Of a DNA stretch of 64,000 bases, positions 30,433 to 63,833 are shown piece by piece. Within the stretch, counting starts at the first letter, position 1; each line of letters opens with the position of its first letter. The DNA comes from Thysanoteuthis rhombus. Lineage: Eukaryota > Mollusca > Cephalopoda > Oegopsida > Thysanoteuthidae. Under the pieces are notes generated by a model. The model worked only from the letters and a program-made list of their open reading frames with translations. It was not told the origin of the DNA and did not search any database. The position numbers and the translations under genes were made by a program. The DNA lies in assembly GCA_963457665.1 (NCBI GenBank), contig OY735219.1, forward strand, positions 13,972,532-14,036,531, given 5' to 3'.

Positions 30433-30705
30433 TCAGGGTAGAAAAGCATCCGGGGGTAGGATCAATGTATCCTGTTGAGTCAAACTGACCATTGCGCTAT
30501 CATCCTGTTCTCGCATCAGGGAAAGAGACTGAGGAGTTTGGGCAAAGAACTTATTCAACGATGCTTTCACTGGCGGCGTTGAGTAATCTTTGGATAAGTT
30601 GAACAAGGACTCAACAATGTGTGTTAGACAGAGTCCCACAGAGTCTTGTTCATGTTCTCCTTGTATTACATACAACCAGTCAGATTCTTCAACACCAGAA
30701 GGAGG
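30433..30705 (-). CDS. Coding exon 19 (last), C-terminal tail and stop
   Basis: The acceptor is ACAATTTCAG; phase 0. It encodes residues 741-830 and a TGA stop. It opens with [13 protein letters not shown] and a helix ([13 protein letters not shown]), probably the end of the SLOG fold, then a Ser/Gln-rich tail of about 50 residues with no recognised motif. The Met seen upstream of it lies in intron 18. Confidence 0.93.
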   Translation of the reverse strand, partial: PPSGVEESDWLYVIQGEHEQDSVGLCLTHIVESLFNLSKDYSTPPVKASLNKFFAQTPQSLSLMREQDDSAMVSLTQQDTLILPPDAFLP

Positions 30706-32773
30706 CTGAAATTGTAAAGAGATAAAAAGTATATAAAACTGAATGAAATTTTGATACATTGACATTTATACAAGTAATGGAATTCTAATGACAAACAAAA
30801 ACTTTTGATTAGGTCTATTATAAAAGGCATGATAGATAAAGTTCACCCAAAAATTTTACAACTAAGCACAAGTGGTAAATACAATCTAAATTTTTTCAAT
30901 GCAAATTTTCAGCAACAATCAATATGTTTAATAATATCATATAAAATCCACATACATAAAATGCAATATATATATATAAAAACACTTTCCATTGATCCTA
31001 GGAAGATCCATACATTGGATCATACATTTTTTTTACAGATACTATTCTTGTAGTATTAATGAAAGGTTGATGTTTTTTAACTTGATATTCATAACTTTTT
31101 TGCAAAGTTATCAAATGGAGTCATTTACTTGATGTCAAAGTAATAAATATACAAAATATTAGATGTATACGGTAATTAACAATCAAATAATTTTAGAAGT
31201 ACTTTTATAAAAATTCTTGAAGTCATTTTTATAGATTTTTGTTCACTAATAAAAAAAAAAATTAAGAAAAATAAATTTTTTTAAATAATAAAAATCTCAA
31301 CATACTATGCCTTTTCATCTTAAACCACTTTTATAGAATTTTCCCAAGTCATGTAAATCTAAGTTCATATGGCTAATAAGAAGTTGATTACTTCCATAAG
31401 AACTTTGATATAAAAAAAAAAATTAAAATCTTTGAAAATATTTTAACTTAAATTAATTTGAGAAAAAAAAAAAACAAAAAAAAACAAAAAAAACAAAAAA
31501 AAAACTTTCCAAACTATTTGCATCGGTGATATTTTATGAATAAAAATTTTGCGACACATTGAGTTTTATTAACCACACAAAATATATAATACAGTCACAG
31601 GTGTTCAACCAACTCAGGAAAAGTATCTTTCAAGCATAAAATAAACCTTAATTTCGTGACACGGTAAAGCGTCACAACACACTCTTTTGGAAAGATAATT
31701 TACCTCAAATATTTTTTCTGGAAAAATTTCCTTGTTCTTGTAGCAACTCACTGGAATGACAATGTTGTCATTCCACACAAAGTGCTGAATCATGGACGCC
31801 ATGTCTGCATCACCTAATAGAAGAAATAAAAATATTGGTCACAAATCATGGCAAAAATGTTGTAACAGCCTTTTATGGCTTGCATGACTGTAGGAAAAGT
31901 AACTTTTTAGATACATTTTGCACTGGTAAAGAATATGGATTCAATGGTACAAGGAAAATTAGCAAACTATTCTACGAAATATCAACAGGACAGAAAATGA
32001 AGTGGAAAATTCAAATAGAACCTGTGCTTATAATAATTATTGTAGATAGCATAGTTTAACTGAAAGTGAAAGCATAAAAGCCTATTATGAAATAGTAGCT
32101 AATAATCTGGACCAATATAGCGGAAGTTATTATGCTCTCTCAAGAAGTTGATTTATTGATAGAAAATATTTCATCAAAAGATCTTACCCTCAACAAGAAT
32201 ACAGCGTTCAAAGGCATGGGCAGCAATGATGTCTCTCTGGAGACGGCCAGAACCAATATAAAGAATCTGTCCAGGAACCAAAGTAGAACATTCTCCATTT
32301 TCCTTTGGCTTCTGGAAGGAAAAGAAAAATGAACTAATATATATGATATAACATAATATATTAGTAGAATGTGGATTTGCTACACAAACTCACTCATGTT
32401 TCTGCCCTCTTCAGGAGAATTCACCTGATGGGGCCCGAAGAGGGCAGAAACAGGAGTTAGTTTGTGTAGCGAATCTACATTCTACTATTTATTTCCAGCA
32501 CCACTAAAATAATTTAACTTCAAGAGTAAAAAGTTGTATGTATCGAGCACCCTATGAAATAAATCCAATACATTTTAGAAGTGGCTTTATACTATTGATA
32601 TATTATTATATTATGTTATACTGCTAGCCTAATTTGTACCACAGAAACTGTGTGTGTGCGTGTATATATATATATATATATATATATAATACGAACTGCA
32701 AAGAGTGAGAGACTCAGGAGTAGTGTTTTGAAGTTAGGTTTATTTATCCATAGATTTTTTTTTTGTTAATTTA

Positions 32774-32809
<36 letters not shown>

Positions 32810-32927
32810 AGAGCTATGTTAGTGACACACAGAGCTCTTTCTTTCTTTCTTTCTTTCTTTCTTTCCTTTCCTTTCCTTTGCCCTAATTGAACTTTTTCCT
32901 CCTTCTCCAACCAATGCTCAGTCTAAA

Positions 32928-32961
<34 letters not shown>

Positions 32962-35900
32962 ACACACGTTTTGCAACCAGGGCACAGAAGGAATTAATGT
33001 GAGCACAAAAGGTTAGTTCCCTAAGATAATGTAGTAATAAATGTGTTTTGATGAAGCCATTTCAAGCAAGTTCATTATAATGATCTGTGGATCCATGGGT
33101 GTTATTTTGATTATTTCATTTTGACATTGCATAACAAAATAAAAATACACATTGATATTTCATTTAATGCAGAGATTCAACCTTTCCTGCATTGCAGACT
33201 AGTTCAAGATTGAAAATATTCTTCCACGACTGAATATAATGGCTGATATACATAGTCATACACAGTTAGTGTAAGTTGACTTTAGGCATAAAGCATTTCC
33301 CTAACAGATAATATTAGTCTATGAACTTGACATTCTGAGGAACACACAGCTGCCTTATGTTGGAGAGTCAATTTATCCAGCAAAAATTTGACTAACCTCA
33401 AATTAACACCTTAGTTTTGGGATTGACTCATACATAGACATATTTTTTGTTCTACAAGGGTTTATCTAACAAATTCAATATTGGACTCCAAGGAAATGAT
33501 TGTTATTATTTTACAAAAAATATTGCCAAACCATATTGTTTCCATGCGGCCTCATAGCACATTTGCCGCCTGTTGGGATCCACCATTTTAATGGAACAAC
33601 AAATTGAACAAAATAATTCGAAGTATACCGTAAAATCTTGAATAAATACATTCCTTTGTAGAATGCAGTCATATTAAAACACACCAATACAGTTTCATTA
33701 GACAAGAAAGATAGGTTGTGCTTGAATTATCTTGGAACAATATCCGAGTTTAAATTTACAGTCAGTGAGCACATATCTTTGCTTCCTATTCACATAATAC
33801 CTGCCTTTTCTTCCAGCCCTCTCCCTTCCTACCCTCTTATTATTCTGCTCAACTTTTGTTTCTTCCTTCTCCCAGTCTGGCACACTTATAGTATCAGTAG
33901 CAGCAATGAGCAGAGCCTGTTGCACAATTATGATAACTATCAGCAAAGCGAGGAGTCATGAATTAATAATCAAAGATTTCGGATGGGGTGGTTGTTAAAA
34001 CCAAAAGTTGTTTTTTCTATACCCAATGGTTGCCCCTCGATTGTGGACTGCATTCAACAAACATTGTTCAGTCAATCTGAAGGCAGTTCAGTCACTCCTT
34101 ATTCTATTTCGACCTTACAAACATGTGTGCACCACATTTAGTGATCTCTGTTCAGTAAAATTGAAATTTTCTATCAACATGTTTGCTGCATTCATCGAAG
34201 TCAGTTCAGATGGATCCACAAGTTCGTTAAGGAATTCTTGTCAGAAAAAGCAATGTCAATCGAGTGAGGCTTACCTTACAGTCAACCTTTGGAAGAATGT
34301 GGGTAATAGAAGGATAAGAATTTGCATTGGAACTGTGTTTCTGTAGAAAGCCTTTGCAGATCTCTTGTGCCACACCGTAATAGCCACTCGTCACAAGTTG
34401 AATACCAACAATAGATGCAAGGTGTTTGCCAATAGATCTGAAATGAAAGGGAAAATATTCAGTTAGAACTTGCAGGAACCATTTTCTTTTTTCAACTGAT
34501 AAGAAAAACAGCACTAAGCTACAGGGAAACATTATCAAACATCAGAAATTACACTGTGTAACATCAAAAGCATTCATCTCTTACAAGTCAAGTCCTATTG
34601 GAGTATGAACGGCCAGTGACAAAGTCCTGGTTTCTGCTGCATGCGTCAGCTTAGTGATTTTTCAAGTTTTTATGACCATCCCCTTGGTTGGATGTATGTC
34701 CACTGAAAGGACACCTCCACCCTAATCACAGAGCTTAGTGTGTACTCAGTTAGCTGCTGAACGCACAGGGAAATTTGTCCAAATGAAGAGTTTTTTCACA
34801 CTTTTTGCTCATACTGGGAAGCAAACCCAGGACCTTCTGTGTGCGTTACATTACACCATCTGATCAGACACACTATGCATTTATTATTTTTTGTTCCTGG
34901 GTAATAAGTGTTATTTACTGATCGATTATTTTTAAAATGTATAGAAAATGGCTATTATTCCCTTCAAACTCTGATTTTGCAATCAGGACAGTAAATCTGA
35001 AATCTACTAATTCCCAGTTGGACAACGGGTGAATTCAGACATTTTCAATCATATAGAGAAAGAAAAGCAACAACTTATGAATATCACCGTTCTGGTCACA
35101 AAAGCCGAGTTCGATGGGAATGATAGCCATTCTCTTTCTATTTAAACAATTAGAAAATAACAGTCACTACCTGGGAGCAAAAATGGCGTTATCAAATATA
35201 TCCAGGTGAAATCTACTTACCTACACAAGTTGCTTGTGGCCTCATCAGGTGTGGATGTGCCTGTAATGTAGATACATTTCTCGAGGTTCACTTTCTGCAT
35301 AAGATTCTGCATCTGTGAAGAAAAAAAATATGTGTATGAATTTACTTGATTGAGTTATAGGCTACTATTATCATACAACCTAACGTTCATACTCAACTCA
35401 ATTTAAAGATTAGGCTGTTGAAAAGAAAAAAAAAAAACAACTAAATACTGGATGAGATTAATTAATCCAGTAATACTTGGGCTTGAATGTTGAGTATTAG
35501 GGACTAAGACAACTCAGAGAGTTAGAACATTTTGCTGATATTCAGAAGTTTGATAATGAAGTCCGTACCTACAACTATAGTTTGTTTGTTTTTCAAACTT
35601 ATATATAAACTTATCATTGGTGAAAAAATTAACAGATATATACTTCAATTTATATGAGATCAATTTTTTCTAAGGAAAGGAACTATATATGAAGAGTTCT
35701 AAAACATAAGCACCATTTAAAAAAAATAAATGTGTTTAATTGAATTTAGAGGAGAAAAAAAGAGAAAAAAAAAAAAGAAAGAAAAAGAAATCATTTTTTC
35801 ATTTGAATTACCCATCCTATAAAAATTTTATAGACTGTATGTACATAAAAAGGTTGTAATAAGATGTAAAAGAATCGAAATCCAGAATTTGATTTTTAAT

Positions 35901-38900
35901 TTATTTAAACACGCATTTCAAATGGCATTTATAGCATTTAGGAACTACACTTTTCAAATATATAAAAAGAGGTAAAATGTCTGTTTGTTAGAAGAGTCCC
36001 TATTAGAGTAGGAATGGCCGGTGACAAAGTCCTGGTTTCCTAAACGGGTATCAGTTTAGTGATCTTTATAAGTTTCAGGTCTTGACAAGATCAAAACATT
36101 CTTACAGGTTTTCATAACTACCCCAAGGATATATATTTATACATACTTTCACATTTATAATACAGCTCAAATAGTACTTTACTTAGCTGCCAAGTGCCTT
36201 GAGAAATTGTAGGGAATTTTTGCTCATAAAAGAAATTGAACCGGGGACCCTCTGCATGTGAGGCAAATGTGCTAAACATCACACTATCCAAGCAGATATA
36301 TATCTCCTTATCTCGCATAAATTACCATAACCTAAGCGTGTACCAGAATTGATTATCTAGAAGTTTCCCCAACCCACAAATTATTTAAAAAGAATACCAA
36401 CACAAGATTTGGGCGTTGTTGCTTCAAGAAGACTATAGAGACTCAAAAAGAGCATTTGAAAAAAAAAAAAACTGTTGGAGAAGATGGTATCAAGTGGTGT
36501 ACCCATGCTGTAGGAGTCAGTAGGAGTGCCTGCAGACACAAACACTCAAAGAGAGAAGAACCTATAGCCCACTTGACTAGTCATTTGTAGGGCTTTAGTG
36601 AATCGAATAATATATATATAGATATATATAGATATAGATATAGATATAGATATATATAGATATAGATATATATAGATATAGATATAGATATAGATATATA
36701 TAGATATAGATATATATAGATATAGATATATATAGATATAGATATAGATATAGATATAGATATATATATAGATATAGATATATATAGATATAGATATATA
36801 TAGATATAGATATATATAGATATAGATATATATAGATATAGATATATATAGATATAGATATATATAGATATAGATATATATAGATATAGATATATATAGA
36901 TATAGATATATATAGATATAGATATATATAGATATAGATATATATAGATATAGATATATATAGATATAGATATATATAGATATAGATATAAATATATATA
37001 TAGTAATGGCCATATTTTTCTATGCCAGCAAAGATCAAGTCACTCTGCAGAGTTCTTGGGAAATTTGCAAAAAAAATTCAATAATTGTTGACTTACAATG
37101 CTTTTTACTTCTGCTTCATTGCAATCATTTTGATCTACAGACGACTGAGTTTTGGGATCAAGAATTTCTCGCACCCATCTTAATAACAGCTGCTGGAAGT
37201 TGGGCTGGTGAATATCCTGGAATAAGAAAAAAAAATAATGATTTTAAACAGCACATGAGAAAGAACATAAATTTTTGGCACATAATCAAAAATGAATCAT
37301 ACTATGAAGAGTTATTTCATGTTTTAATCCTTTCCGTGTTTATTAAGTCAGGATATATCTTACTAGTTGTGTGGAGTCGAAAGTCAAAAGAAATTTTGGA
37401 TTACTGGAGTCAGTAAAAGTGTTCTGAACTCCAACCTTATATCCTGGAAAATATGTGTTTTAAAAACGAAAGGCCTGAAATCAGAAATTCAGCTTAAACT
37501 CAATTGAATGAAATAAAAAAAAAAAATTATAATTCAGCAACCTATTCATCAGAATTTAAAGCTATAACGACACGTGGGCGGGCCGGCTGCGGGAGAATAA
37601 CACGGAGACACTTGGGCGGGCCGGCTGCGGGAGAATAACACGGAGACACTTGGGCGGGCCGGCTGCGGGAGAATAACACGGAGACACTTGGGCGGGCCGG
37701 CTGCGAGAGAATAACACGGAGACACTTGGGCGGGCCGGCTGCGGGAGAATAACACGGAGACACTTGGGCGGGGGCAGCTGCAGCAGAATAACACGGAGAC
37801 ACATGGGCGGGTCGGCTGCAGGAGAATAACACGGAGACACATGGGGGGGCAGCTGCGGGAGAATAACACGGAGACACGTGGGGGGGCAGCTGTGGATGAA
37901 TAACAAAGAGCCATTGGGGGGGGGGGGACAGAGGAATAACAAAAGTGAGGGGGGGCTGCAGAAAAGAAGAGAAGATTGGAAAATTAAGTGAGACTTACTC
38001 TAAGTTTAGATGACAGCATTAGCATGCTCATCCAGGAAGGAATGTTAAACTCTTCGTATTTCAGTGTGATCATCCATTTTCGATGTTCACAGTAGAAAAC
38101 CTTTGAAATGAAATAAAATAAATTTTCACAAGATGTTCTTTCTTCATTAGATTGAAAATGCTTTGTCATTGGAAAACTAGCAAAAACAAATTTAAAACAA
38201 CTTTTGAGATCATTAACCATTCTTTTACAAAAGACACAAAAATTCACATATCATAGAAAATCTTAATACTTTGTATAAAAATTCATACAATAAATATCCA
38301 ATGACAAGCATTAGAAATATGATATCAGTGTTAATGTTTATGGCTATATTTTAATGATAACTATTTTATAAAAGTGTGATAATCTGTATTGTAAAAGCTT
38401 GTGATATATTTTTCTATACTTGACAGTGTTTGGTAAAGAAAAGTTTCACTATTTTTTCTCAAACTAAAAAAAAATTTCAAATGCAACAAATTTCAAATCT
38501 GAAGATGGTCATAAATACTCCTACTATAGTATCTACTTGGCCAAGATTGTGATACATTTTATTTGAACTGATAATATTACAGAAACCTAGCCATACAGAG
38601 ATTAGAAAATCATCAAACAGTGACAACTATATCTATTCTCAGTTTTGTTTCACTCTAAGTAAAAAAATTGTATTCTATATGAGAGTTCTTCAAACTTTCA
38701 CTCACAACCTAGTTTAATCTTATGCAATAGCCTTATGACCAGTGACATAATACAATCCATTTTATCTCAAGGTTTGGGCATAAACTTGAAAGAAAGACCA
38801 CTTCATACTATCAAAATTCAAATGCAACTTATCTAGATTGCTTTGCCTTCCACCCATCTCCCTCTCAAACTTTGGTTGTGGTTTTTCAACCAAGCAAAGA

Positions 38901-41900
38901 TTACTAGAAATGGGCTTCCATTAAAGCAATTCAAATATGAAAGACTATGAACTGAATAAAAAAATTTAAAAAAATTTTTTTAAATCAAATAAAAAAAAAA
39001 AAAAAAAAAAAACACACACAAGGAGTAAATATTCAATTTTTTTGCCCTCTGGCTCTATTGTTATAGCCTGTATGCAAGATAGGTAGAAAGCCAGCCTGAA
39101 CAACTAAGAAACTGATGCTAACAGTTTCTAATAAAAAGCTATTTAGATTGTTTTTAAGCTTCTTGTTACTAAAGACGAATTCTTTAGTAAAAAAAATGTC
39201 TTGTCTGACACCCATCTCATTTAACTTTGTTTTTCAACCATGCTAAGCTTAATATTATGGTTATGATACAATGGATTTAAAGTATTGATTTCAAATAAAT
39301 ACATACACATAAATGATACTTTATACTTGAGATAGATATACATAAATAAATCAATAACATTTTTTTTATATATAATTCCAATACTAGTTGTCAATTTTGT
39401 TATTAAAAGTTTATTGAATAAAGAATGCTCAATGTATTAAAAATCAGATTAAAAAGAAAGACATATTTCATGTTTAATCCATTTTCCTAGATTTCAATAT
39501 TTTGTATTAGACTAATGCTGTTAATTTCTCTTCTAACAATATTTACAAACTCAAATGAACAAAACTTTGCTCTTTATCTCTTTATTGAAGATTCTTTTCC
39601 ATTTCATATTGAACTTACGTTTATAATGGATCAGAATTATTTTTTTTTATCAAAAATACTCTTAACAACTTTGAAAATTCAAATTATTCATTCTAATTTG
39701 ATTCTGAAGGAAATCGTCAATTAGTTTTGGTCAAATTATTGTAAAGAAAATTATCTCGAAATAACCTTGTATGTTATTTATCTATATATATGTACGTACA
39801 TACGTATATATAGATAAGTAACATGGGTAGTGAAGGGTTCTATCCCTTTTTATATTTGTGTGTGTGTGTGTGTGTGTTCTTGCACTCCTGGCCATACCGT
39901 TATGTCTACATAGTTGAAAATTGGCATCAGTACTACACTAAACCGCTGAAAAAAAATTTTTTCCAAAAATAAAACAAGCTTTGACCTTTGACCAAAATGA
40001 CAGGTTTAATAATTTTTCTTTCTACTTTATTTTAGATGTTTTCTGTTATGATGTAATAAATAGAATTCATTAATACATTTTTTTTTTTTTTCTCTTTTCG
40101 CACTCAAGTATAATGCCATGTTGCTAGTGCATCTACGGTCCAACTTTCCATCTTGTCATACCAAGCTGCCCTTAAAACCCTTTGAATTTGATAAACAGTC
40201 AAAACGAACCTGTTGCAGACATCTTCCACTAGATGTATAGGCTTTTGAGAGAACAAATATGATTGCTGCAGCTTCATCTGCTTTCTCTTGGAATTTCTGA
40301 CAACCTATCTGGGAATTGCAGTCTGAAGATTAAAAAAAAAAAAAAAAAAAAAAAAAAGTTATTTAAAAGAACACAAACAGGTCTGGTTAGTCACTCAATA
40401 GAAACAATGGCACAATGGTGTGGTTGGGTGACCAATTAATAAATTGGATACAGGAATGATCAATGAATAAGCTACTTACCTTTTGTTGGGTGGTGATCAC
40501 TAAAAAAAGTCTGAATTAATATAATTGAAAAAAATTAAGTGAATGCTGCCAGACACAAAGTAAGGAGCAAATTTAGTATAAATTTGCATCGTAAATTGAG
40601 TCCAATTCCAAAATAGTGGGGGGGCGGTAACAAAAAAAAAAAAAAAAAAGTTTACAAGGAGTGAATGTTTTAATCTTCAGCTCTCCAGCCACATTGGTGT
40701 AGCTTCCACTCATCATCCATATATAACCAGCCAACCAGACCCACTTTAAAACTGAAGAAATCAACACTGACATTTTTGGTTGATGATTTTTTTTAAATTA
40801 TAACAACTGAACAGCATAACTAACATGCTCATAGAAATATTGCATTTGATAGCATACATTCAGACTGATTATTAAAAAGCAAAACGCTTTTTCTCTGGAT
40901 TTCAAGTTCTGGCTAATGTGGAGCTGGTTATGTTGATATTTCCAGCCAGGGAGGGGAGGGGGTCTCATATGCCAATTACAATACTTATTTCAAATAATTG
41001 TATTGAAATTATGGAAAATAATTCAACTGACCAATTGCTTTTTGTAGAGAAACACTTCCAATGAATACTGAAATGAAGCCATACTGGAGGTTTATCGTCA
41101 GATCAACCAATGATTATAAAAATCAGTAGTAAATGTATAACATTAAAATCTTATTTCTCTAAAAATAAAAAAAAAATAAAAACAACATTATTTCTTAAGT
41201 TTGCTTTTTTTCTTTTTAAACCAGTCCTGCTGTTTGCTTCTTTCATTTCACTCTTAGTTACTGTCATAGCAAAGTAATTATTGAGTAGGATTTGTTTTTT
41301 GTCAACTCTAATAGGTATAGGTTTTTGATATCGTCCAAGTGTTTGGTTAACGGTAACTGTGTGGGGGGGGGGGATTTCCCCTCTGCTCAACAGAAATGGA
41401 ATCTTTAGTCTAGACTCTTGATTCTTTGTTGTTTCAAGAATGAGAAAAATTTTCCGTCTTAAAATTATGGAATAAGCTGTACTGCACATTCTTAAAATAG
41501 GATATTTACAAATGTTGCAGTTAACGTTTAATTTTTCTGACTGATACTGTATTTTTGCTCAGCATCACCAGAGAAAAACTGCTAAAAGAGACTCTTTCCT
41601 TGCAGATTTACATCTTACACCTGGAAAATGCCATGGAATGAATCTTCCAAAACACTGTGTCAGCATCAAAGACGTAGAGAGATTAAATTGTTCTAACAAA
41701 AATTGGAATACATATTTTCTTTTCCTATTGGTCGATCGGTTCATTAGTAAACAGGAGAATCTTACAAATTGATAGTCTCTATTTGTCTCATGTACTTCAA
41801 ACGAATGTAATTTTTTTAGTTATAGTCTGCCAGGCTAACTTATTAAACATTACGCAATGGCAATGTCTCAAAGATAGAAACAAAGAAATGTTTCTTGTAT

Positions 41901-47900: not shown

Positions 47901-48822
47901 ATAGCGGAGGAGTTCAGTTCTCCACATTTGATGAACATCATTAAATAAATCCAAAGACAGTTTGACTGCCCTTGTCCTATTTTCAAAATGAGAAATTCCA
48001 ACAATGGTTCAACGGACCCAAATTTGAAACACCCTAAAGATATTGCGGGAGGTCTTCACTGGTTGTGCAGCGAAACAACTGAACTCATTTACTTAACACA
48101 AAAAAATCTTTCAGATGAATCAAATTTGGGTTTCCAAAAACATTGTGCTGAAAGTTTGGTATGGTCCATGTGTTCACCACATTTATTGAACTTTGTTCAG
48201 TAAATCTGAAGTCAGTTCAGATGGATCCACTAGTTCATTAAAGCTGAAATTCATTACATCAAGAGGTTTTTATAAAGATAATTATGCCGCAAAGATGTCA
48301 AACGCACAAAGAATGAGCAGAAAAAAACTCACCAGAAAAACACTGACATTAAGGGCGAGGAGCTCTGCCTTGAGACAACTTGCTAATTGAGAAGACTCTG
48401 CCCTGACATAGCTGATGAGAATTTGTTTGCCTTGATTTGAATAACTCAGGGATTTGACCCTAGAACTTTCACCTTCGCAATCAACAGGTTGCATTTGAGT
48501 CAGTGACGTGTCCGAACTGAGGGTAAAAAAAGAGAAACATACCTGTTAAAGGTAAACATGGAAGAAAAAAAAGAAAAAAAAAATTAGCTTGGTATATTTT
48601 TTGTTACAATTATACAAGTGGATCTTATATAAGGTTAAGTAAGATCTAGACGGCTGACATCTTTATATAATAAATTGTTATATTACCTAACTAAACCTCA
48701 ATTTGATATACAATAAATCTGAGCCAGATTGGCAGGTTCATCTGGCTATGTTATTCCAGTACTTGTTGATACTCCATAGATGTATGGAGAAAATGTAATC
48801 TAATTTAAAAGAAGAAAGAAAG

Positions 48823-51800: not shown

Positions 51801-54800
51801 GAAAGTGCCATTGTAGATAAATGGAGGGGTAATAGTAAATTTTCAAGCGTTTTACTACACTGTGATAGACAAATAGGGATCAACAGATTTGTTTTTGCTA
51901 TGAATCTGGATCATCTGTTTTCAAGGCCATTGGAATGTTGGTTTTAAGTGTACAGGACACACGAGGGGATTTTGAGACACTTGGAAGAGAGGAGTGCCAT
52001 TTTGAGAATTATTTTGTGCCCAATACACTGATAGAAAAATCTCAGCAGAGGCCAAGTTTTAGGTATGGGGGGGGGGGGGGGGGGAATAGATGACATTATA
52101 CATCATTCATACAGCTAGAACATTTTCAATCACAACAATAAATTAACCTAGGGTGTCTTTTTTCAAAACTAAAAGAGAAAAAAATCGTTGGTTTCATTGA
52201 TTTATATAAATCATAATTTAATCATAACCTGCCACATGGATGGAATAGTGATGTAATTCCTACCGGTGCCAGAGGTCAGTGTTCAAGCCTAGATATATGC
52301 TGATGTTCTAGTCAGGCAAATCCTTCCCACAAGGTGAATCAACAAATACATAGCCCGACAATTGTTAGCTAAATTTTAATCAGAAATTTTCAGAATATAA
52401 TGTCTGATCTCTGTGATTAATGGAGAAATGTGGGGTCAAGTGAATAGACAAGGAAGGGAGATTGTTGAAAAATAAGTATTTATGTTAAATAAATGCCCTT
52501 CCCCCCTCCCCATTTGGCTGTGGACTTATTGATGTACCTACGTATATTGCATTTTCACAAACAGAAATTTGAAAATTTGAAGTATCAGAAATGGACAGAA
52601 TATACAAAAAGCAACTCACCAAAATAGCGCTCAATATGGATACAGCAGTCACTGGAGACAATTTCTTCAATTGGAACATCTTTTTCTTGTTCAGGGAGAA
52701 TGGGCCACCTGTAAGAGCAATAGAAAATAGTCCATATAGACTGGGACATCTTGAGAATATTTGAGGCCCTGATGACTGGATCTGCCCTTAAATCTAATCA
52801 ATTCTTACTTAGCTCATGGCCCATCCTTCAACAAAAATGTCATTAAAATTCATTGAAACCTTTTCAAGATACTATGCAGACAAACAAACAGGAGTCGAAA
52901 CACATATACCTCTTCCAAATTTATTGGTAGAGGTAATGAATTTTACTCAGAAATCTTTTCCCAGTAAAATCAAACCTAAAAAAGTCTCTTGGTGAAGACC
53001 TGGATTCTGCTTTGAATGTAACGTCTTGTCATATCTTTTTTAAAGCCAAGAACTTGTTAGTATCAAGGTAGCAAAGAAAAACTTATTCCTACTGCTGGAT
53101 AATAATTGATAAACCTGTTATTTGCTATACACACCCGAATATGATACAGTGAATTGACTATCATTCAACTCAACAGATTTTTCCCAATAAAACAGCCTCT
53201 CTGGAAGTAATGATAACCACTTGGATAATATAATGGTTAGCATGTCTTACACAAAGAAGGTCCAGGTTCACAGTACCAGCCAAGAGAGTGGAAAACTCTT
53301 CATTACAATAAATTTCCCTGAGCACTCAGCAGCTAATTGAGTACACTCTAAGCAGTATCCCTTTAGCGGACTTGCATCCTGCCAAGGGTATGGTCATAAA
53401 GATTTGTACGAATAAAGTCTCAGATCACCAAGTCAATGCATGCAATGGAACCTGGGGTTTTGTAACAAGCTGTTTATACTCCACTGGATGATGACCTACC
53501 AGCAACAGAATCTCTCCCCTAAAGATCAAAGGATCTTTCATGTTTACCTATCTTCAGACATTGAATACCTGACTTGGGCAAGAGAAATCAAAAGGTCTAT
53601 GCTTGAAGCAACCTATGACACTTCCGGGGACTGTCAATATGATTGGGTATGTATAAGAAGAAGCAAAAAGTATCAGTTTAGTAATAAACTAGGGCAATAC
53701 CTGTTCCAACGTTGCTGGACATTATGGTGTGTTGAGCAGATTGCCAAAATAATCACGAGTTTTCCGTCCATCATAAAGAAATATGTCTTTGAAGTATTTT
53801 GGTTACTTCTCAGTATTGCCAATTTAGATATTTTGTATCTAAATTTAGATCAAGTATTTTAGATAGATCTATAATGTAAATTTTTTTTAACTTTTTTTTT
53901 TTATTGGATTTCTCAAGAACCACCAATCAACAAAACTTCAAGCTGCCTTGCGTGCTGACAAATATATCTGGAAAATGTCAACTTCATACAATGGCCAATC
54001 GTCGAGTATTCGAGATTTCTTCAACCGTACTTGATTGTAATCGGATATACAAATATCCATCTAGAAGAAAGGATATCTTGTTCATTCCGAGGAGAAAACC
54101 AATGTTGTAAACATTCCATTCATTTCTTGTCGCTCACAGCCAGGCTAACCAGAGGATTCAACAGTGGGTTGGGGTAGCAGGGGAAGAGGCCCTTGGCTTG
54201 CATCATTGAGTGTAATGTAGAGATCAGTCTCCTCTCCTCTTTCGGAGGATTAAAAGGATCCTCTCAAGAGGCTCCCCACACGATCCCCGGCTGCCAAGAT
54301 ATTTTCAAGATATCTGACAATGGAGGAAAGTGCATGGCTAGTGAATCCATATCTTTCCCAAGGTCATTACCCTTGGAAGCAAGCAAGAAAAAACCTACTC
54401 CGCCTAATGGTTAACAAGCAACAGACTTCAAGAGCAAGGAAGAAAAAGAAAAAAAAAGTTGTACCAGAGAGGATTTGATCCCAAGATTAACTGGTTACAG
54501 GTTGAAATCCCCAAACCACTGAGCCATAGAAATATTAATGAAAATTAAAATTTGTGTTCATAAGCAACATTATATTGTTTAGATGGCTTTGTTATTAGCT
54601 TAGTTTTAATGGTAATTTTCAATGAAAAGATATTTATATAAAGTTTTACAGCTTTGAAAACTAAACATTAAAAAATTTTCAATATTTTTTGTATCACTTC
54701 AGTCACTTTTCCCAAATACTTGCTAATACAATTCATGTAATGTTCTTCAGTATTTTTTTTTTTCCCTGTTTAACAAATACTTTGCCATTAAGGCTACTAT

Positions 54801-56347
54801 AATGTAAATTCTCTTTTGTTGCGAACATCAATTGCTTACCATGTAACTGTTCCAGGGATTCTAAAAACAAAAGTTATATCAACATGCCCCCCACCACCAA
54901 CAGTGCTGATAGCATATATATAATTCAGTTATTTTATATAGGGGTATTGTATGATATTTTTCATAACCAAAATTCAATGTTTACAAAAAATACATCTTTT
55001 ATAGAAATAGATATGCCCAAATTAATTTATCGTTTATTTGGGGAATGAAAAATATTCTATTCATCATGAGAAGAAATCTAACACTGCCTTTTACATTGTT
55101 CGACTCATCAGTGTTTACATAAGTCAAGTTTATGACTTACCAGTTTTTGGTAATGTAAAATTGTTACATGAAAAAAAAGAGTCAAATTTAGAGTTAGTTA
55201 AAAAAAAAATTTTTTAAAGTTTAAAACTTACCCTCTACAAGTACGGAATGTAAAGTTTGTGGGTAGGTGCTTGTGGAGTTGGGTTTGCAGCAGTGAGCGC
55301 ATACTACTTGTTGTGTGATTACTGAGCATATAGGCAGGCACAGAGAGAACCCCGAGACAGAGACTTCGGGAAGGACCCTGCACCAGCTGAACACCAAGAA
55401 TGCGACGGTCACAAATAACAGCTCCTAGAAGAACAAATATTAATTATGTATCATTATTGAGCAAAAGTCATCTAAATGTTATCAGATTTACTTCTGGGTT
55501 AAAAAGAATGTGTGGAGCAATGATTGAGCATGAAACAACTGAGCCAAAGACAATTGAGAGTGAGACAATTCAGCAAATTGAAAATTAAGAAATTTGATAG
55601 GGAAAAAAAAAAAAGTTTCTATAAAATATGTTCCACCCAATGTCTATGTGCCGTACAAATAAAAAAAAAAATATTTTAATTCAAATTTTCACAAGGTAAA
55701 TATAACGTTAGGTATTTGTAAACTAAGAAATAAAAAAATGTGTAGCAAATTTATGAATAAAAAATATTTCAATTCATACAATTATCCAGAGTAAATATAT
55801 ATACATAGCATATATAAACAAAACACCATTTCTTACATTTTTTCCATTTTTGATGCTATCATTGTGTGAAATGATAGAAAGTATGATATAGATATGCTCA
55901 GTTGTCTTACACTCAATTGCCAGCAAACCAAAAAAATGTCTCAGGACTTGTTTTTCCCTAGTGACAAATTCCTGGATAAACAAACAATAACATCCAACCA
56001 GAAAAGACAAAACGATTTTAGGAGTAAAAAAAATCAAAATAGAATTTATAGTCAAAAATATAACTGAATGGTAGAAACAAAAATTTTAAAAAATAAATAA
56101 ATAAAATAAAACAAAAAAGGTCTGGTTAGTCACTCGATAAAAACCATCTTATGACCAACATCTCTTGGCAGCATGGTATGTGGAGGTGATCAATTTAAAA
56201 ATTGGAAAAGACATGATCAATGAAGTCGTTACTTCTATTGCCTTTTGTTAGGCAGTGATCACTAAAATGTCTGAATTTAAAGAAAAAAAAGATGTTGAAC
56301 CTCATAGAATGAACCTCCCACTAAAAATCTTCCAAAGAAAGGGGTGA

Positions 56348-61302: not shown

Positions 61303-61358
<56 letters not shown>

Positions 61359-63833
61359 ATTTGGTTTATCGTGAAGGGGGCAGACAAACAGTGAACAGTT
61401 TACTTCTCTATATTAGAAGATTATTTTTGTAGGATTATTCTTGCTACGGTGGGGGGGGGGAATAAGTCAACTTGAGCCTCCGACTTGAACTGGGGTTTCT
61501 ACTCTAAAATCAATTATGGCTTTAAGCTGGGTATTCATTAAATAACATGGATATTTTCCTCCCTTTTTACACACGGGTACTTAAAGAGTCCTGAGAAAAA
61601 AAACCCTTTCTCGTTAGTGTTGGCAAAAGGGGACTTAAAATTTAGTACATCGAAATCAATGTTATAGCCACAAGAATCTTTCATGACGGTTCACTTAGTT
61701 TAGGAAATACGATGTTTTTTTGTAGCGAACAAGACAGTTCTTTAGTCACTGAAATAATACAAACCAGAGGGATATCTATTCATCCATAACTCCCTCGTAT
61801 AAAATCACGGATGTATGACTGCTAAAATAGCAGCAGTACCGTATTATTCTGAGAAACAGAAATTGAAAATGAGTGGATTGAATTCAATGAAGAAATTTAA
61901 TGAAAAAAAAAAAAAATTTCAGCGCTATATAGTTTTCCCCTGTACAAGACAAATAGGCATTAAGTTTATTTTTAGAGGTTTCACAATAATTCATTTTCCC
62001 AAAGAAAAATCCATCTCAGTTTATTTTTTTTTACAATATCTATTACAAAGGAGCAAGACGAAATATGATCCCCCCAGGCCGAACCCCAAAAATGTCAGAT
62101 TATTCCAGTAGAGCGTGAAATGTCTTTTCCCGTGGGATTTACTTACTTCAAAGGAAAGAAAAAAAGAAAAAGAAAAACAAACCTATATATTTTAGATTTT
62201 TCAATCTATTTGAAAGATTAAATTTAGAATCTTGCAGTACTTCATAAGAGAAAAATTGAACTGAGAAAGAAATACGCGTGGATCATTTTTCACAGAAATT
62301 ATTCAATAAAAATTAGGAATAAAAGAATTTGAAATTAAAACATCAATTTTTCAAATGAAACTTTACTTTTTCCATTTGAGTAATAATGACAATAAGGTGT
62401 TGTGATTTTCTTTTTTTATTTGAAATTCTAAAACACAGCCTAACCCAAGGGTGAAAAAAGTTTTTCATTTAAAAAAAGAAAAAGTAGGTGGTATTTTTGT
62501 CTGTTTAAAAAAAAAACCCACCCATTCTAATAGATGAATAGGGGCTTTTTTGTTTTGTCATTGTTTAAACTCTATATTTATAGATATTCAAATATTGAAA
62601 GTTATTTTTCAAGATAATCTTTTTTCATCAGAAAAAAAATAATTTAAGAAAAAAAAAATGTTATCTGTCAATTTGATAAGGAGATAATTATTTTAATTAG
62701 ATGTGTAATATTTTGTTTCATATGTGCGTGTGTGAAATGTAAAAATAACTCTTTTCATATTAGCTGAATAGCTCTTTAATTTTTTATATTTTACAAAACA
62801 GAAGATAGAAAACAGTTATCCATAGAAATAAAGAAAAAAAGCGAAATTAAGAGTTATTATTATCATCATTAATTATTGGATTCACTCACGTAAAATGAAG
62901 CATTGTCTTTTTCTTTATAAAAATTGTTTTATTAATTTTATTGAATTAAAATCTGAAAAACAGAGATCCAGAAATTTTTTTTTATTAATCAATTTCAATC
63001 TTTATAAACATTGTGCGGGCGTGAATAGCTTGATTTTAAATCATAATTTTCATTTTAAGAACAATGAAAATATTTTTTATTAAAAATATTGATTTTACTG
63101 TGAGGCCGTCTTCCTTCAAATTCTTCACGAAGATGCTGCTACTACTACAAATGGACAATTTTGACAATCTTTTATTTCAAATGAAATATTCCAAAATAAT
63201 TAATACAAAACTATTTTAGGCCGAAACGAGTATCTTCTTGAATAATGACAATAAAATACGTAAAATAATTCTACTCATAGAATATTGAAACAAAACCACC
63301 TTCTTTTTTTTTTACCTCGTTCATTAGGTAAACAAAAACACTAAAAACAGGTTTCTAAGTGTAGCCTTTCCGTACCTACTTAAACAGGTCATGGTACAGT
63401 TTACAAAAATGCATTTAGTTACCTCAAGAAAATTTTACAAAACTCAGGAAATGACATGAAACTACTGAACTTGATAAAAAAAAATCAGAATACAACAATA
63501 TAACAAGTCAAGTGAATGATATTTCAATTAATTAAAATATGACATAACAGAACAACCTTACTTGAATTGTGCGCTTTTGATTAGTGCATGTTTTCATGAA
63601 GTACACGGTCAAGATTTTGCTGTACAAATTAATGTAACTAAATATAAGCTGAAAACAAAACCATTAAATTATGATAAGGTTTCGAAAAATACATCATAAA
63701 AATTGGGAACGAATTAACCGCACTAATCAAAGCACCTGTACACAAGTGTCAGGTTAAAATGTACTTTAGTTTTTAAATGCTACCATCACAACTTCTTGAT
63801 GGTGAAAGAAATCGGGTACAAACCTCCTGCCAT
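30433..63833 (-). CDS. TIR-TIR-SLOG-like protein, 19 coding exons, 830 aa (complete spliced gene)
   Basis: The gene was assembled from 19 coding segments (2,493 nt with stop) listed separately below; every intron is GT..AG and the phases match throughout. Domain order: two 81-residue-period N-terminal modules (about 10-96 and 99-176, possibly ubiquitin-like), basic stretch 195-199, TIR1 about 230-345, linker, TIR2 about 428-537, SLOG/LOG-like Rossmann domain about 588-790, and a Gln/Ser-rich tail ending [11 protein letters not shown]1 resembles SARM1: first strand [14 protein letters not shown] loop, and W299-x3-E303 at the place of the NADase glutamate. TIR2 has Q503 there. No signal peptide or membrane segment is visible, so an intracellular protein is inferred. 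Inferred role: an NAD+-cleaving or TIR-scaffold immune or stress sensor whose own SLOG domain may bind an ADP-ribose-type product. The start rests on a 10-nt first exon; the rest is secure. Confidence 0.87.
31704..31813 (-). CDS. Coding exon 18, SLOG-like final strands
   Basis: The acceptor is TCTATTAG and the donor GTAAAT; phase 1 in, phase 0 out. It encodes residues 704-740: GDADMASMI where enzymes of the LOG family have GGxGTxxE, then NIVIPV (720-725). Loss of the GGxGT glutamate motif argues for ligand binding rather than LOG hydrolase activity. Confidence 0.9.
32188..32311 (-). CDS. Coding exon 17, SLOG-like GSGR segment
   Basis: The acceptor is CCTTCCAG and the donor GTAAGA; phase 0 in, phase 1 out. 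It encodes residues 663-703: YIGSGR (680-685), [17 protein letters not shown] (688-704). An Arg-Asp helix followed by a strand ending at a Gly is the expected second half of the nucleotide site. Confidence 0.9.
32362..32487. repeat. Near-perfect hairpin (about 50-bp arms) in intron 16
   Basis: Left arm TAGTAGAATGTGGATTTGC.. to ..CTGCCCTCTTC, right arm GAAGAGGGCAG.. to ..CATTCTACTA, with a loop of about 22 bp and only a few mismatches. It lies about 50 bp before exon 17 on the transcript. Confidence 0.85.
32664..32970. repeat. Microsatellite cluster in intron 16
   Basis: (AT)n at 32664-32688 and 32778-32806, (CTTT)n at about 32840-32878, and (GT)n at about 32930-32958. Confidence 0.9.
34030..34245 (+). 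repeat. 'Repeat F' copy next to exon 16
   Basis: It shares CAGTTCAGATGGATCCACAA, TTTGTTCAGTAAA-like and CATGTGT.CACCACATTTA words with 48120-48250. It ends about 30 bp from the exon 16 donor. Confidence 0.75.
34275..34437 (-). CDS. Coding exon 16, SLOG-like glycine loop
   Basis: The acceptor is TCATTTCAG and the donor GTAAGC; phase 2 in, phase 0 out. It encodes residues 608-662. After a helix ([10 protein letters not shown]) comes [18 protein letters not shown] (621-638), the strand/G-loop/helix unit typical of LOG, DprA-like and TRPM SLOG domains. Confidence 0.9.
34590..34866 (-). repeat. tRNA-derived SINE
   Basis: On the minus strand: a box A relic, box B-like GGGTTTGCTTCCC, then the common body (AATTTCCCTGTGC, CAGCAGCTAACTGAG, GTGTCCTTTCAGTGGACAT, ACCAGGACTTTGTC). 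Same family as 35990, 46215, 46560 and 53210. Confidence 0.8.
35221..35312 (-). CDS. Coding exon 15, first strand of the SLOG-like domain
   Basis: The acceptor is TTCACAG and the donor GTAAGT; phase 0 in, phase 2 out. It encodes residues 578-607, including KCIYITGTS (589-597). The strand ending in TG(T)S fits the first nucleotide-binding loop of SLOG/LOG Rossmann folds. Confidence 0.86.
35990..36298 (-). repeat. tRNA-derived SINE
   Basis: Minus-strand box A GATAGTGTGATGTTTAGCAC and box B GGTCCCCGGTTCAATTTC, then a body ending in CAGGACTTTGTCACCGGCC. Lies in intron 14. Confidence 0.82.
36609..37000. repeat. (TATAGA/TATATA)n satellite, about 390 bp
   Basis: TATAGA and TATATA hexamers alternate in a higher-order 18-bp pattern (TATAGATATAGATATATA). 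Lies in intron 14, about 100 bp from the exon 14 donor. Confidence 0.95.
37097..37216 (-). CDS. Coding exon 14, TIR2-SLOG connector
   Basis: The acceptor is TTATTCCAG and the donor GTAAGT; phase 0 on both sides. It encodes residues 538-577: [19 protein letters not shown], probably a helix, followed by an acidic stretch. The genomic frame here is masked by a longer plus-strand ORF that is spurious. Confidence 0.85.
37565..37966. repeat. GC-rich 38-bp minisatellite in intron 13
   Basis: About nine units of 38 bp (GGGCGGGCCGGCTGCGGGAG + AATAACACGGAGACACTT) with starts at 37576, 37614, 37652, 37690, 37728 and so on, then degenerate units to 37966. It is far more GC-rich than its surroundings. 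Because 38 is not a multiple of 3, all minus-strand frames cycle through the same peptide; the ORFs are artefacts. Confidence 0.95.
37999..38100 (-). CDS. Coding exon 13, end of TIR2
   Basis: The acceptor is CATTTCAAAG and the donor GTAAGT; phase 0 on both sides. It encodes residues 504-537: [18 protein letters not shown], the post-catalytic helix and strand E, then PSWM. Confidence 0.87.
39020..39125 (+). repeat. Rep-1 right-half fragment (intron 12)
   Basis: AAGGAGTAAATATTCAA, CCCTCTGGCTCTATTG and AAACTGATGCTAACAG match the Rep-1 right half loosely. Confidence 0.5.
39771..39824. repeat. 54-bp palindrome (intron 12)
   Basis: ATGTTATTTATCTATATATA on the left mirrors TATATATAGATAAGTAACAT on the right around a GTACGTAC centre. 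A (GT)n tract follows at 39857-39876. Confidence 0.85.
40210..40322 (-). CDS. Coding exon 12, TIR2 core with Gln at the catalytic position
   Basis: The acceptor is ATCTTCAG; the donor is the weaker GTTCGT; phase 1 in, phase 0 out. It encodes residues 466-503: [17 protein letters not shown] (480-496 region) is a clear TIR strand D and loop, then C500-L-Q-Q503 where active TIRs carry Cys-x-x-Glu. The exon ends exactly at Q503, matching exon 7 ending at E303. Confidence 0.86.
40375..40785 (+). repeat. Rep-1 element, full-length copy (intron 11)
   Basis: Order: CAGGTCTGGTTAGTCACTCAATAG, TGACCAATTAAT, TGATCAATGAATAAG, GGTGATCACTAAAAAA, then TAAGGAGCAAATTTAGTATAAATTTGCAT-like, TTCAGCTCTCCAGCCACATTGG, CCAGCCAACCAGACCCACTTT. 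The same order recurs at 49957 and 56108, so it is one element of about 390-440 bp with a mid-element A-rich/G-run stretch. Type unknown; no coding. Confidence 0.8.
41919..41988 (-). CDS. Coding exon 11, TIR2 helix A and strand B
   Basis: The acceptor is TTTTTCAG and the donor GTAAGA; phase 0 in, phase 1 out. It encodes residues 443-465: [17 protein letters not shown], the helix-strand step of a TIR fold. Confidence 0.88.
42942..43067 (-). CDS. Coding exon 10, start of TIR2
   Basis: The acceptor is CGTTTCTAG and the donor GTAAGT; phase 0 on both sides. It encodes residues 401-442, with the first TIR2 strand KTLIVVSL (428-435). The usual SY/SH pair of active TIRs is changed to SL. Confidence 0.87.
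43506..43669 (-). CDS. Coding exon 9, linker between TIR domains
   Basis: The acceptor is TTCTATAG and the donor GTATGT; phase 1 in, phase 0 out. It encodes residues 346-400: a polar, Pro-containing linker, a helix-like [17 protein letters not shown] that could be the last TIR1 helix, and a basic end (KPSLFRR). Confidence 0.88.
44262..44340 (+). repeat. Family B fragment (intron 8)
   Basis: GAGCCATGCATATTGGATTAG and TGTTAAATTTGG resemble the family B core. Confidence 0.45.
44400..44430. repeat. (GAG)n/(GGA)n microsatellite
   Basis: Nine or so GAG triplets within intron 8. Confidence 0.9.
44886..45232. mobile_element. MITE 'E'-like copy, diverged (intron 8)
   Basis: The left end TATACAGGTTGGGAAAGAATTAA and right end AGTTCCCTTTCATCCATCCAGTACA parallel the 28849 element. 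The inner right sequence (AATAAAGTTATAACCAATTTCC) matches its 29140-29165 segment. Confidence 0.7.
45456..45582 (-). CDS. Coding exon 8, end of TIR1
   Basis: The acceptor is CTTTCAG and the donor GTGAGT; phase 0 in, phase 1 out. It encodes residues 304-345: the helix after E303, strand FILPINF (313-319), then EWPP (322-325), all standard late TIR elements. Confidence 0.93.
45650..45975 (+). repeat. LINE 3'-end fragment (intron 7 region edge)
   Basis: It contains GGAGAGTTCACAAGACGGCAC, ACATACAACCGCTGGACAT, CATGTGAAA and a tail with TCATGTCTGATGTTGAAC. It is the 21150 LINE family in the plus orientation, between exons 8 and 7. Confidence 0.7.
46215..46545 (+). repeat. tRNA-derived SINE (intron 7), copy 1
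   Basis: Box A ATAGTGTAATGGTTAGTATG, box B GGTACTGGGTTCAG, then the body (AAATTTCCTTGAGCACTCAG, CCCTTTGGTGGACTTGCATC, CACTGAGCTGATGCATGC). Confidence 0.85.
46560..46748 (+). repeat. tRNA-derived SINE (intron 7), copy 2, truncated
   Basis: Box A ATAGTGTAATGGTCAGCACA, box B AAGTTCAATTCCC and body up to CCCTTTGGTGGACTT; truncated 10 bp before the exon 7 donor. Tandem with copy 1. Confidence 0.83.
46758..46883 (-). CDS. Coding exon 7, TIR1 core with putative catalytic Glu
   Basis: The acceptor is TTCCTTAG and the donor GTAAGT; phase 0 on both sides. It encodes residues 262-303: the BB-loop-like DVDEIKTG (262-269), FIPLLTP (286-292), then W299-T-N-R-E303. In SARM1-type NADase TIRs the glutamate four residues after this Trp is catalytic. 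The exon ends exactly at E303. Confidence 0.94.
46915..47135 (+). repeat. Rep-1 right-half copy (intron 6)
   Basis: GGATCAATTTAGCATAAACTTAC, TTTTCAGCCCTCAATCTCC, CCAGCCAGATCC and TGTGGACAGTTTTGG match Rep-1. Confidence 0.75.
47490..47800 (+). repeat. Dispersed repeat with an internal duplication (intron 6)
   Basis: Two similar segments, 47555-47650 and 47690-47765: CTGGGTATACTGTGAATGCATG..TTTGG versus TTGGTCCACTGAGTATGCAAACC..TTTGG, each ending in a GCTG(C/T)(A/G)CC word. The A-rich end (GACAGACACACACAAACAGACA) resembles a retroposon tail. Confidence 0.5.
48120..48250 (+). repeat. 'Repeat F' copy next to exon 6
   Basis: It shares CAGTTCAGATGGATCCAC and ATGTGTTCACCACATTTA with 34030-34245. 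It ends about 80 bp from the exon 6 donor. The sequence from 47808 (CAGTAAACCCTCGC) may be the element's left end. Confidence 0.7.
48333..48516 (-). CDS. Coding exon 6, start of TIR1
   Basis: The acceptor is TTACCCTCAG and the donor GTGAGT; phase 2 in, phase 0 out. It encodes residues 200-261: a Ser-rich linker, then QILISY (231-236), helix [12 protein letters not shown] (241-252) and strand VSVFL (257-261). The wording is close to the start of the SARM1 TIR domain. Confidence 0.93.
48822..48863. repeat. Poly-A run
   Basis: About 40 consecutive A residues in intron 5. Confidence 0.95.
49742..49941 (-). CDS. Coding exon 5, end of repeat 2 and basic linker
   Basis: The acceptor is GTTTGTAG and the donor GTAAGT; phase 0 in, phase 2 out. 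It encodes residues 134-199. FIFLT (142-146), W150-P151 and Q156-E157-K158 repeat the exon 2/3 motif with identical spacing. It ends in the basic cluster RRKRK (195-199), a possible nuclear localisation signal or acidic-surface binding patch. Confidence 0.88.
49957..50395 (+). repeat. Rep-1 element, full-length copy (intron 4)
   Basis: ACAGGTCTGGTTATTCACTCAA through GGCGATCAATTAAAAAGTTG, GCCGTGATCACTAAAAAAAA and CAGCCCTCTAGCTCCATCGG to TGCTGACAGTTTTAATTGACG. It starts only about 15 bp upstream of exon 5 on the transcript. Confidence 0.8.
51050..51135 (+). repeat. tRNA-like SINE relic (intron 4)
   Basis: Box B-like GTGGGTTCAATTCTCACCC near 51107-51126, with only a weak box A. Confidence 0.4.
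51273..51379 (-). CDS. Coding exon 4, start of N-terminal repeat 2
   Basis: The acceptor is TTCCTGTAG and the donor GTAAGT; phase 1 in, phase 0 out. It encodes residues 98-133, including PRIGV (100-104), EGLGY (110-114) and STLRDLL (124-130). The TLRDLL helix matches SMRSLL of repeat 1 exactly 81 residues earlier. Confidence 0.87.
52620..52708 (-). CDS. Coding exon 3, end of N-terminal repeat 1
   Basis: The acceptor is TCTTACAG and the donor GTGAGT; phase 2 in, phase 1 out. It encodes residues 68-97, with W69-P70 and Q75-E76-K77, the second half of repeat 1, which recurs in exon 5. Confidence 0.87.
53210..53465 (+). repeat. tRNA-derived SINE (intron 2)
   Basis: Box A ATAATGGTTAGCATGTC, box B GGTCCAGGTTCACAGTACC, body CAATAAATTTCCCTGAGCAC and CTTGCATCCTGCCAAGGG. 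Confidence 0.82.
53466..54415 (+). other. Intron 2 segment with unusual open frames, unassigned
   Basis: A 140-codon frame starts inside the SINE tail at 53440 and runs to 53862; two further open stretches follow (53904-54110 and 54193-54414). The peptide has a mixed, protein-like composition ([20 protein letters not shown]) but no domain I can name. It may be a decayed retro-copy or chance; it lies opposite the host transcript. Confidence 0.3.
54450..54535 (-). repeat. tRNA-derived SINE head (intron 2)
   Basis: Minus strand: box A TGGCTCAGTGGTTTGG and box B TTGGGATCAAATCC. A different tRNA head from the 46215 family. Confidence 0.6.
55232..55424 (-). CDS. Coding exon 2, N-terminal module repeat 1
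   Basis: The acceptor is TTCTTCTAG and the donor GTAAGT; phase 1 in, phase 2 out. It encodes residues 4-67, including helix-like SMRSLL (44-49) and the strand FTFRT (61-65) that opens the FxFxT..WP motif. The correct frame is not the longest ORF here: another frame begins with a spurious Met. Confidence 0.85.
56108..56495 (+). repeat. Rep-1 element, full-length copy (intron 1)
   Basis: AGGTCTGGTTAGTCACTCGATA, GAGGTGATCAATTTAAAAATTG, GGCAGTGATCACTAAAA, a 30-nt poly-A at 56353-56382, then AAGCTTCATCGGAATGGCC and CATACATAGCCAGACAGG. Confidence 0.8.
56500..57900. other. Intron 1, no gene seen
   Basis: AT-rich unassigned intron sequence. 57480-57700 repeats a GTCAAAAGT.GGGGAAA motif several times at irregular spacing. 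Confidence 0.5.
57906..58504. mobile_element. pogo/Tigger-like element, about 600 bp (intron 1)
   Basis: The left end TACAGAGGAACCTTGATTATCC and right end CGGATAATCGACGTTCCACTGTA are inverted repeats of about 25 bp with TA edges, matching the well-known Tigger-type end (CAGTGGAACCTCGATTATCC). An internal subterminal repeat (GATTATCCAAACAAAAT / AGTTATCCAAACAAAAT) is present. No transposase, so non-autonomous. Confidence 0.85.
58725..58870 (+). repeat. Family B dispersed repeat (intron 1)
   Basis: GGTTGCCAGATTGGGTC, GGAGACTTACCAAATACAGG, CATTGGAATAGTGTTGAATT, GGTTCAATACC. The last word is a B-box-like sequence, so this family may also be pol III-derived. Confidence 0.75.
59040..59225 (+). repeat. 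LINE 3'-end relic (intron 1)
   Basis: It contains GAGCCGGCCATGTGATACAA (AGHVI relic), AGAGGAAGACCC and GAGATGGAATGAACTGGC, the RT C-terminal GHV..RGRP..RWNDEL theme, out of frame. Confidence 0.55.
60653..60703. repeat. (AT)n microsatellite
   Basis: AT dinucleotides; similar tracts at 60355-60404 and 61301-61356. Confidence 0.95.
60725..61066. repeat. Large palindrome of a dispersed repeat (intron 1)
   Basis: The left arm 60725-60843 (GGTAGGATATCGGCCTCCGG, TCTGAAGTGAAGGTTTCAAT) and the right arm 60935-61066 (its reverse complement with one ~16-bp insertion) flank a 90-bp spacer that carries the 151-210 repeat. A third partial copy follows at 61228-61303. Confidence 0.85.
61067..63560. other. 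Intron 1, no gene seen
   Basis: AT-rich with (AT)n at 61301-61356 and many A/T runs. I recognise no additional exon or repeat in 61500-63560. Confidence 0.55.
63566..63738 (-). mobile_element. MITE 'A' copy 4, close to exon 1
   Basis: Reverse orientation: the right end reads AACCGCACTAATCAAAGCACCTGTAC and the interior AATTAATGTAACTAAATATAAGCTGAAAAC matches 29600-29680. It sits about 85 bp inside intron 1 from the exon 1 donor. Confidence 0.78.
63824..63833 (-). CDS. Coding exon 1 (ATG plus 7 nt), TIR-TIR-SLOG gene
   Basis: ATG GCA GGA G is followed by a GTTTGT donor. Joined to exon 2 it gives [11 protein letters not shown] in an open frame. The tiny size makes this the least certain exon, but the phase fits exactly. 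Intron 1 is about 8.4 kb. Confidence 0.65.

Follow-up and report, generated by a model that had tools for sequence, protein, structure and literature searches.

A predicted cephalopod protein with two TIR domains and a SLOG-like domain could form a self-contained NAD+ switch resembling a bacterial anti-phage signaling pair

Nucleotide signals made by TIR domains are read by SLOG domains in bacteria, and TIR-made signals are known in plants too. The catalysis of animal TIR domains has been studied mainly in SARM1, which combines sensing and cleavage in one chain and is in this respect the nearest precedent for the gene described here. Among animal proteins, TRPM2 carries a SLOG-class domain that has been linked to ADP-ribose. 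For the pairing of a TIR product with a SLOG reader, the nearest precedent is Thoeris, as set out in passages of two papers (PMC10022894; PMC11204291), and bacterial SLOG-TIR immune systems are mentioned in passages of two others (PMC7824862; PMC9503650). In a section of PMC7075850, a TIR group with varied architectures is characterized as largely lower-metazoan, 22% of it coming from mollusks, so that unusual molluscan TIR proteins are to be expected. In the full-text literature, judged from the titles and abstract openings of the matches listed and with subscription papers mostly outside the collection, no paper on an animal TIR-SLOG layout was found. An animal fusion of an intact-looking TIR active site with a SLOG-like domain is a direct and testable candidate for TIR-SLOG signaling in animals.

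The window analyzed is a stretch of 64,000 nucleotides on one contig (C22) of the genome of Thysanoteuthis rhombus, which comprises 2,731,506,558 bases in 514 contigs. A hand-revised model places in it a gene of 19 exons on the minus strand (63833..30433), with 18 GT-AG introns of consistent phase. The encoded chain has 803 residues and carries two copies of a repeat of about 75 residues, a first TIR domain (TIR1, residues 232-341), a second one (TIR2, residues about 401-510) and a SLOG-like domain (residues 563-698, perhaps up to 745). The order TIR-TIR-SLOG within a single predicted chain, put forward in the original prediction, is borne out by the gene model and the domain profiles, as are the 19 phase-matched exons. 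The 830 residues claimed for the chain are not, and past TIR1 the earlier domain numbers exceed the present ones by about 25-27; the extra residues probably lay between TIR1 and TIR2, and our guess is that the exon at 43669 had been given an acceptor further upstream. On the basis of its domain analysis, the layout could represent a self-contained NAD+ switch similar to a bacterial anti-phage signaling pair. The exons and the evidence for each are as follows.

63824..63833, minus strand: exon 1, 10 nt with the start ATG; phase compatible with exon 2, start context with A at -3 and with G at +4, donor weak
55232..55424, minus strand: exon 2, tandem repeat 1; exon score 13.1, one genome place at E 1.7e-34
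52620..52708, minus strand: exon 3, end of repeat 1; exon scorer, automatic chain, genome tblastn
51273..51379, minus strand: exon 4, start of repeat 2; exon scorer, automatic chain, genome tblastn
49742..49941, minus strand: exon 5, end of repeat 2 and linker; repeat comparison, automatic chain, genome tblastn
48333..48516, minus strand: exon 6, start of TIR1; exon scorer, Pfam, genome tblastn
46758..46883, minus strand: exon 7, TIR1 including W299 and E303; SARM1 alignment
45456..45582, minus strand: exon 8, end of TIR1; Pfam, genome tblastn, SARM1 match
43506..43669, minus strand: exon 9, TIR1-TIR2 linker; exon scorer, automatic chain, genome tblastn
42942..42986, minus strand: exon 10, 45 nt, first strand of TIR2; phase 0/0, splice scores 0.1 and 0.1
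41919..41988, minus strand: exon 11, TIR2; exon scorer, automatic chain, Pfam, genome tblastn
40210..40322, minus strand: exon 12, TIR2 with Q476 at the place of the catalytic Glu; Pfam, tblastn, alignment
37999..38100, minus strand: exon 13, TIR2; added by hand, genome tblastn
37097..37216, minus strand: exon 14, end of TIR2 and linker; automatic chain, genome tblastn
35221..35312, minus strand: exon 15, start of the SLOG-like domain; acceptor ttttcttcacag immediately 5' of an ATG, genome tblastn
34275..34437, minus strand: exon 16, first glycine loop of the SLOG-like domain (SGYYGV); LDcluster4 matches
32188..32311, minus strand: exon 17, second half of the SLOG-like domain (R661); automatic chain, genome tblastn, profile alignment
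31704..31813, minus strand: exon 18, end of the SLOG-like domain; automatic chain, genome tblastn, profile alignment
30433..30705, minus strand: exon 19, C-terminal tail and stop; automatic chain, genome tblastn

The exon scorer used splice-site matrices and codon usage taken from general knowledge and was not trained on this genome. Automatic chaining yielded 18 minus-strand exons from start to stop (score 84.6). On positions 30000-64000 the automatic 18-exon chain, as it stood before the hand edits that led to the 19-exon model, scored 90.4 on the minus strand; the plus strand reached 9.5, and 10 first-order Markov sequences gave 1.1-6.5. By hand, the lysine-rich first exon of the automatic chain (58957) was replaced by the 10-nt exon with its ATG at 63833, the TIR2 exons 42986..42942 and 38100..37999 were inserted, and the exon 33916..33833, whose acceptor is weak (0.4) and without which the phases fit, was removed. 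With this last exon the full-chain match to LDcluster4 was shorter (E 0.11, compared with 0.03 in the revised chain, which differs in other ways too), and exons 10 and 13 together with other edits raised the full-length TIR_2 score from 76 to 82.2 bits. Certainty is lowest for exon 1, whose donor is weak, and for the 45-nt exon at 42986. The coding exons have a GC content of 43%, compared with about 31-36% in the surrounding 4-kb stretches. When the protein was compared with the whole genome by tblastn, with the best candidates scored, 18 places appeared at E<=1, of which 17 are the gene's own exons (2-9 and 11-19, each at E<=2.5e-6) and the last (E 0.31) belongs to another TIR gene; only the 10-nt exon 1 and the 45-nt exon 10 have no place of their own. 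At this sensitivity no second copy of the gene was seen, and a genome search with the SLOG part matched only its own five exons. The gene thus modeled appears, as far as its sequence goes, to be a real animal gene and looks intact. Elsewhere in the window, the intronic stretch 37542-37999 is repetitive by eye and open in all three minus-strand frames, and positions 17715-19116 and 24870-26043 hold long purine- or pyrimidine-rich simple repeats that leave many frames open on each strand and are not genes.

The joint between exons 14 and 15 deserves separate consideration, since exon 15 starts exactly at an ATG, exon 14 is able to read through to a stop (37040) and the intron between them measures about 1.8 kb. 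These features would also be expected if the model had falsely joined at least two genes, a TIR gene and, downstream of it, a SLOG gene with its first coding exon starting at the ATG of exon 15. We regard such a join as improbable, given that a good acceptor (score 3.7) lies 5' of this ATG, that the phases match and that the automatic chain links the two exons unprompted. The exons would belong to a single transcript.

The best supported domain of the chain is TIR1. By itself it matches Pfam TIR_2 at E 7.4e-17 (62.4 bits, cut-off 28), its best match in NCBIfam is the Thoeris type III protein ThcB4 (NF058526, 2.9e-17; 62.6 bits, under the model cut-off of 220), and its best match in PADLOC is ThsB (5.4e-13). 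Among solved structures, the best match by sequence is SARM1 (E 9.6e-9). In the alignment, Y236, R238, D262, W299, E303 and W323 keep all six of the SARM1 positions Y568, R570, D594, W638, E642 and W662, which we take to be those of the active site, and E303 aligns with the catalytic Glu. These profile matches and the six retained positions make TIR1 a likely active NADase. Outside animals, 35 plasmid records match TIR1 at E<=0.01 (identity at most 34.5% among the 20 listed); viral contigs gave no match, and none of 88 pattern-matching stretches in a genome-contig collection was confirmed.

TIR2 is more divergent. Alone it falls just below the cut-off of 28 for Pfam TIR_2 (27.2 bits, E 6.1e-6), and two TIR_2 stretches are found in the full chain at the lax limit of E 10. 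A small TIR profile built without TIR2 scores 11.7 bits on TIR2 and 0.0 bits on the SLOG region; nothing was listed for TIR2 in NCBIfam or PADLOC. The assignment rests on profiles because TIR1 and TIR2, compared pairwise, show no significant similarity (1642 of 2000 shuffles score as high). None of the six SARM1 active-site positions is kept in TIR2, which has S, H, T, R, Q and I at those columns, with Q476 in that of the catalytic Glu. TIR2 is therefore likely a catalytically dead pseudo-TIR, a point that had been overlooked when NADase competence was first proposed; by its residues, such competence is supported for TIR1 only.

The C-terminal domain shows modest similarity to SLOG proteins. 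The isolated region matches Pfam LDcluster4 (PF18306) at E 0.0018 (18.4 bits, below the curated cut-off of 26.3), a value that becomes 0.0032 with the C-terminal tail and 0.03 within the full chain. The first half alone reaches E 0.0087 with LDcluster4, the second half alone has no match in Pfam, and TIGR00725 of NCBIfam matches the first half only (E 0.16). For our own LDcluster4 profile, 80 bacterial and archaeal relatives were kept of 156 found with a hand-written consensus as probe; all five that were scanned in Pfam matched LDcluster4 at 3.9e-32 or better. This profile gives the SLOG region 16.4 bits over its first half, compared with 2.4 for the best of 500 shuffles (301 reported) and -1.3 for the reversed sequence. 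A single-sequence hhalign comparison aligned query residues 14-135 at E 0.00073 (for one comparison) with a probability of 26%. The second half alone behaves as shuffled sequence does, 108 of the 755 shuffles reported (of 1000) scoring at least as high. All this evidence comes from one family rather than from independent ones, and it weakly places the domain, mostly by its first half, in the LDcluster4/TIGR00725 branch. At the level of sequence, homology can be graded as strong for TIR1 and modest for TIR2 and the SLOG-like domain.

Other SLOG classes found no support, and the SLOG assignment of the original prediction survives weakly and in this branch alone, not as TRPM-like or ThsA-type. 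A TRPM-like domain was suggested by eye from the second half (VEG...) and was rejected, as our own TRPM profile, made from three of the five TRPM-like loci in the same genome, gave -0.5 bits (best of 500 shuffles 5.1, with 379 reported). LSDAT_euk is absent from the Pfam listing for the region, ThsA-type models did not match it in Pfam or PADLOC, and neither did any other PADLOC model. Searches of phages and viral contigs by tblastn yielded no relative, and PHROGs gave no match. The only tblastn match in plasmids (Acinetobacter, E 10) is by eye unrelated and probably a secreted protein, and the single match in the PDB, to an unrelated protein, is at chance level (E 0.39). The weakness of the second half, together with the lack of a match in PHROGs and the chance-level match in the PDB, would fit a Rossmann-like fold other than SLOG, in which LDcluster4 recognizes a generic nucleotide-binding half. 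We consider this distinctly improbable: Pfam, NCBIfam and our own profile, which all represent one SLOG family, give the same register, and the Pfam scans list no other nucleotide-binding family for the region.

The motifs of the SLOG-like domain are degenerate. Neither GT..E nor GG was found in residues 551-760, and the second glycine loop is degraded; all 80 relatives have GT..E, although the probe used to find them included this motif and biased the set in its favor. By its residues the domain does not qualify as a LOG phosphoribohydrolase, whose motif we take to be GGxGTxxE, and it is predicted to be catalytically dead. The degraded loops may also mean that no ligand is bound. Degraded motifs in both TIR2 and the SLOG-like domain could indicate a decaying gene without function, a reading that we hold to be very improbable in view of the GT-AG splice sites and the conserved active site of TIR1; the 803 codons free of stops and frameshifts speak in the same direction, with less weight because the hand-revised model was itself picked for openness.

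The N-terminal tandem repeat had no place in the original prediction. Its two copies align with a score of 58, which none of 2000 shuffles reached (best shuffle 56). The repeats have no convincing match in Pfam (best DUF4518, E 0.096) and none by sequence in the PDB up to E 10. By eye, our guess is a ubiquitin-like (beta-grasp) fold, and a docking role may be guessed for them.

Taken together, a competent-looking TIR1, a dead-looking TIR2 and a SLOG-like domain without the catalytic motif fit a design of enzyme, gate and sensor. We tentatively favor, at somewhat less than even confidence, a real gene whose single chain holds two repeats, an NAD+-processing TIR1, a TIR2 that checks or scaffolds it, and a dead, ligand-binding SLOG-like domain that acts as the switch. 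The SARM1-like TIR1 would hydrolyze or cyclize NAD+; the pseudo-TIR2 would pair with TIR1 and restrain or scaffold it; and the SLOG-like domain would bind an NAD+-related ligand and set the on or off state. The whole would amount to a Thoeris in one chain, or to a SARM1 in which SLOG replaces the ARM sensor. The NADase activity, the binding of a ligand and the direction of control are inferred, and a role in immunity or stress may be envisaged. It is plausible that an NAD+-derived product of TIR1 would be sensed by the SLOG-like domain. The fuller version, in which an ADP-ribose signal, cyclic or linear, is produced by TIR1 and read in cis by the SLOG-like domain of the protein itself and the pseudo-TIR acts as the gate, that is, a metazoan Thoeris-type circuit in one polypeptide, seems to us rather unlikely. 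Somewhat unlikely is a scaffold or adaptor, whose TIR domains work by assembly in the manner of MyD88 and whose SLOG-like domain is structural only, with no NAD+ chemistry. The loss of all six checked positions in TIR2 and the lack of GT..E and GG agree with such a protein, and TIR domains, according to a section of PMC7075850, mostly assemble signaling complexes and are less often NADases. Against it stand the six positions kept in TIR1 and the finding that, among named proteins, TIR1 matches Thoeris TIRs and SARM1 best.

Several other TIR and SLOG loci were seen. In the same genome, a tandem array on another contig (C34:2946561-3207301) holds 15 TIR-encoding exons on one strand, with 10 of the 14 gaps at about 13.6-16 kb, and two more TIR exons lie elsewhere on that contig. 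In the two copies that were read, a helical stretch, TPR-like by eye, precedes the TIR, and the array looks like a lineage-specific expansion of immune genes. A second TIR gene on the contig of the window (C22:40569000-40575000), about 26.5 Mb off and split over exons, has weak similarity to TIR1 (E 0.31) and keeps the Glu (SRELSLADLL). Genes that by eye are TLR-like and TRPM-type LSDAT_euk matches also occur in this genome, as would be expected of an animal. Among the 80 LDcluster4 loci, one has a TIR-like ORF in the stretch examined: in this actinobacterial locus (L091, 3001-5101), a TIR-CHAT gene (TIR_2 5.1e-17, CHAT 2.3e-25) comes after the LDcluster4 gene and has the same orientation.

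Compared with known systems, the predicted protein resembles TRPM in that both hold an animal SLOG-class domain, but Pfam finds no channel domain in the chain and the TRPM profile gives no signal. With the LDcluster4/TIGR00725 proteins of bacteria and archaea it shares the first strand, the helix, the glycine loop SGYYGV and an Arg close to the GxxRN position, whereas the GT..E of all 80 relatives is missing. SARM1 aligns over the whole of TIR1, which keeps the catalytic Glu together with the five other positions checked; unlike SARM1, the chain has no ARM or SAM by Pfam along its full length, and it carries the N-terminal repeats, a pseudo-TIR and a SLOG-like domain in addition. Thoeris consists of two proteins (a ThsB or ThcB TIR and a SIR2-SLOG ThsA), while the gene described here encodes one chain, with no SIR2 by Pfam in its full length and a SLOG-like domain of the LDcluster4 branch. 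It resembles Thoeris in the match of TIR1 to Thoeris TIR models, in NCBIfam under the model cut-off, and in the occurrence of a TIR together with a SLOG-like domain.
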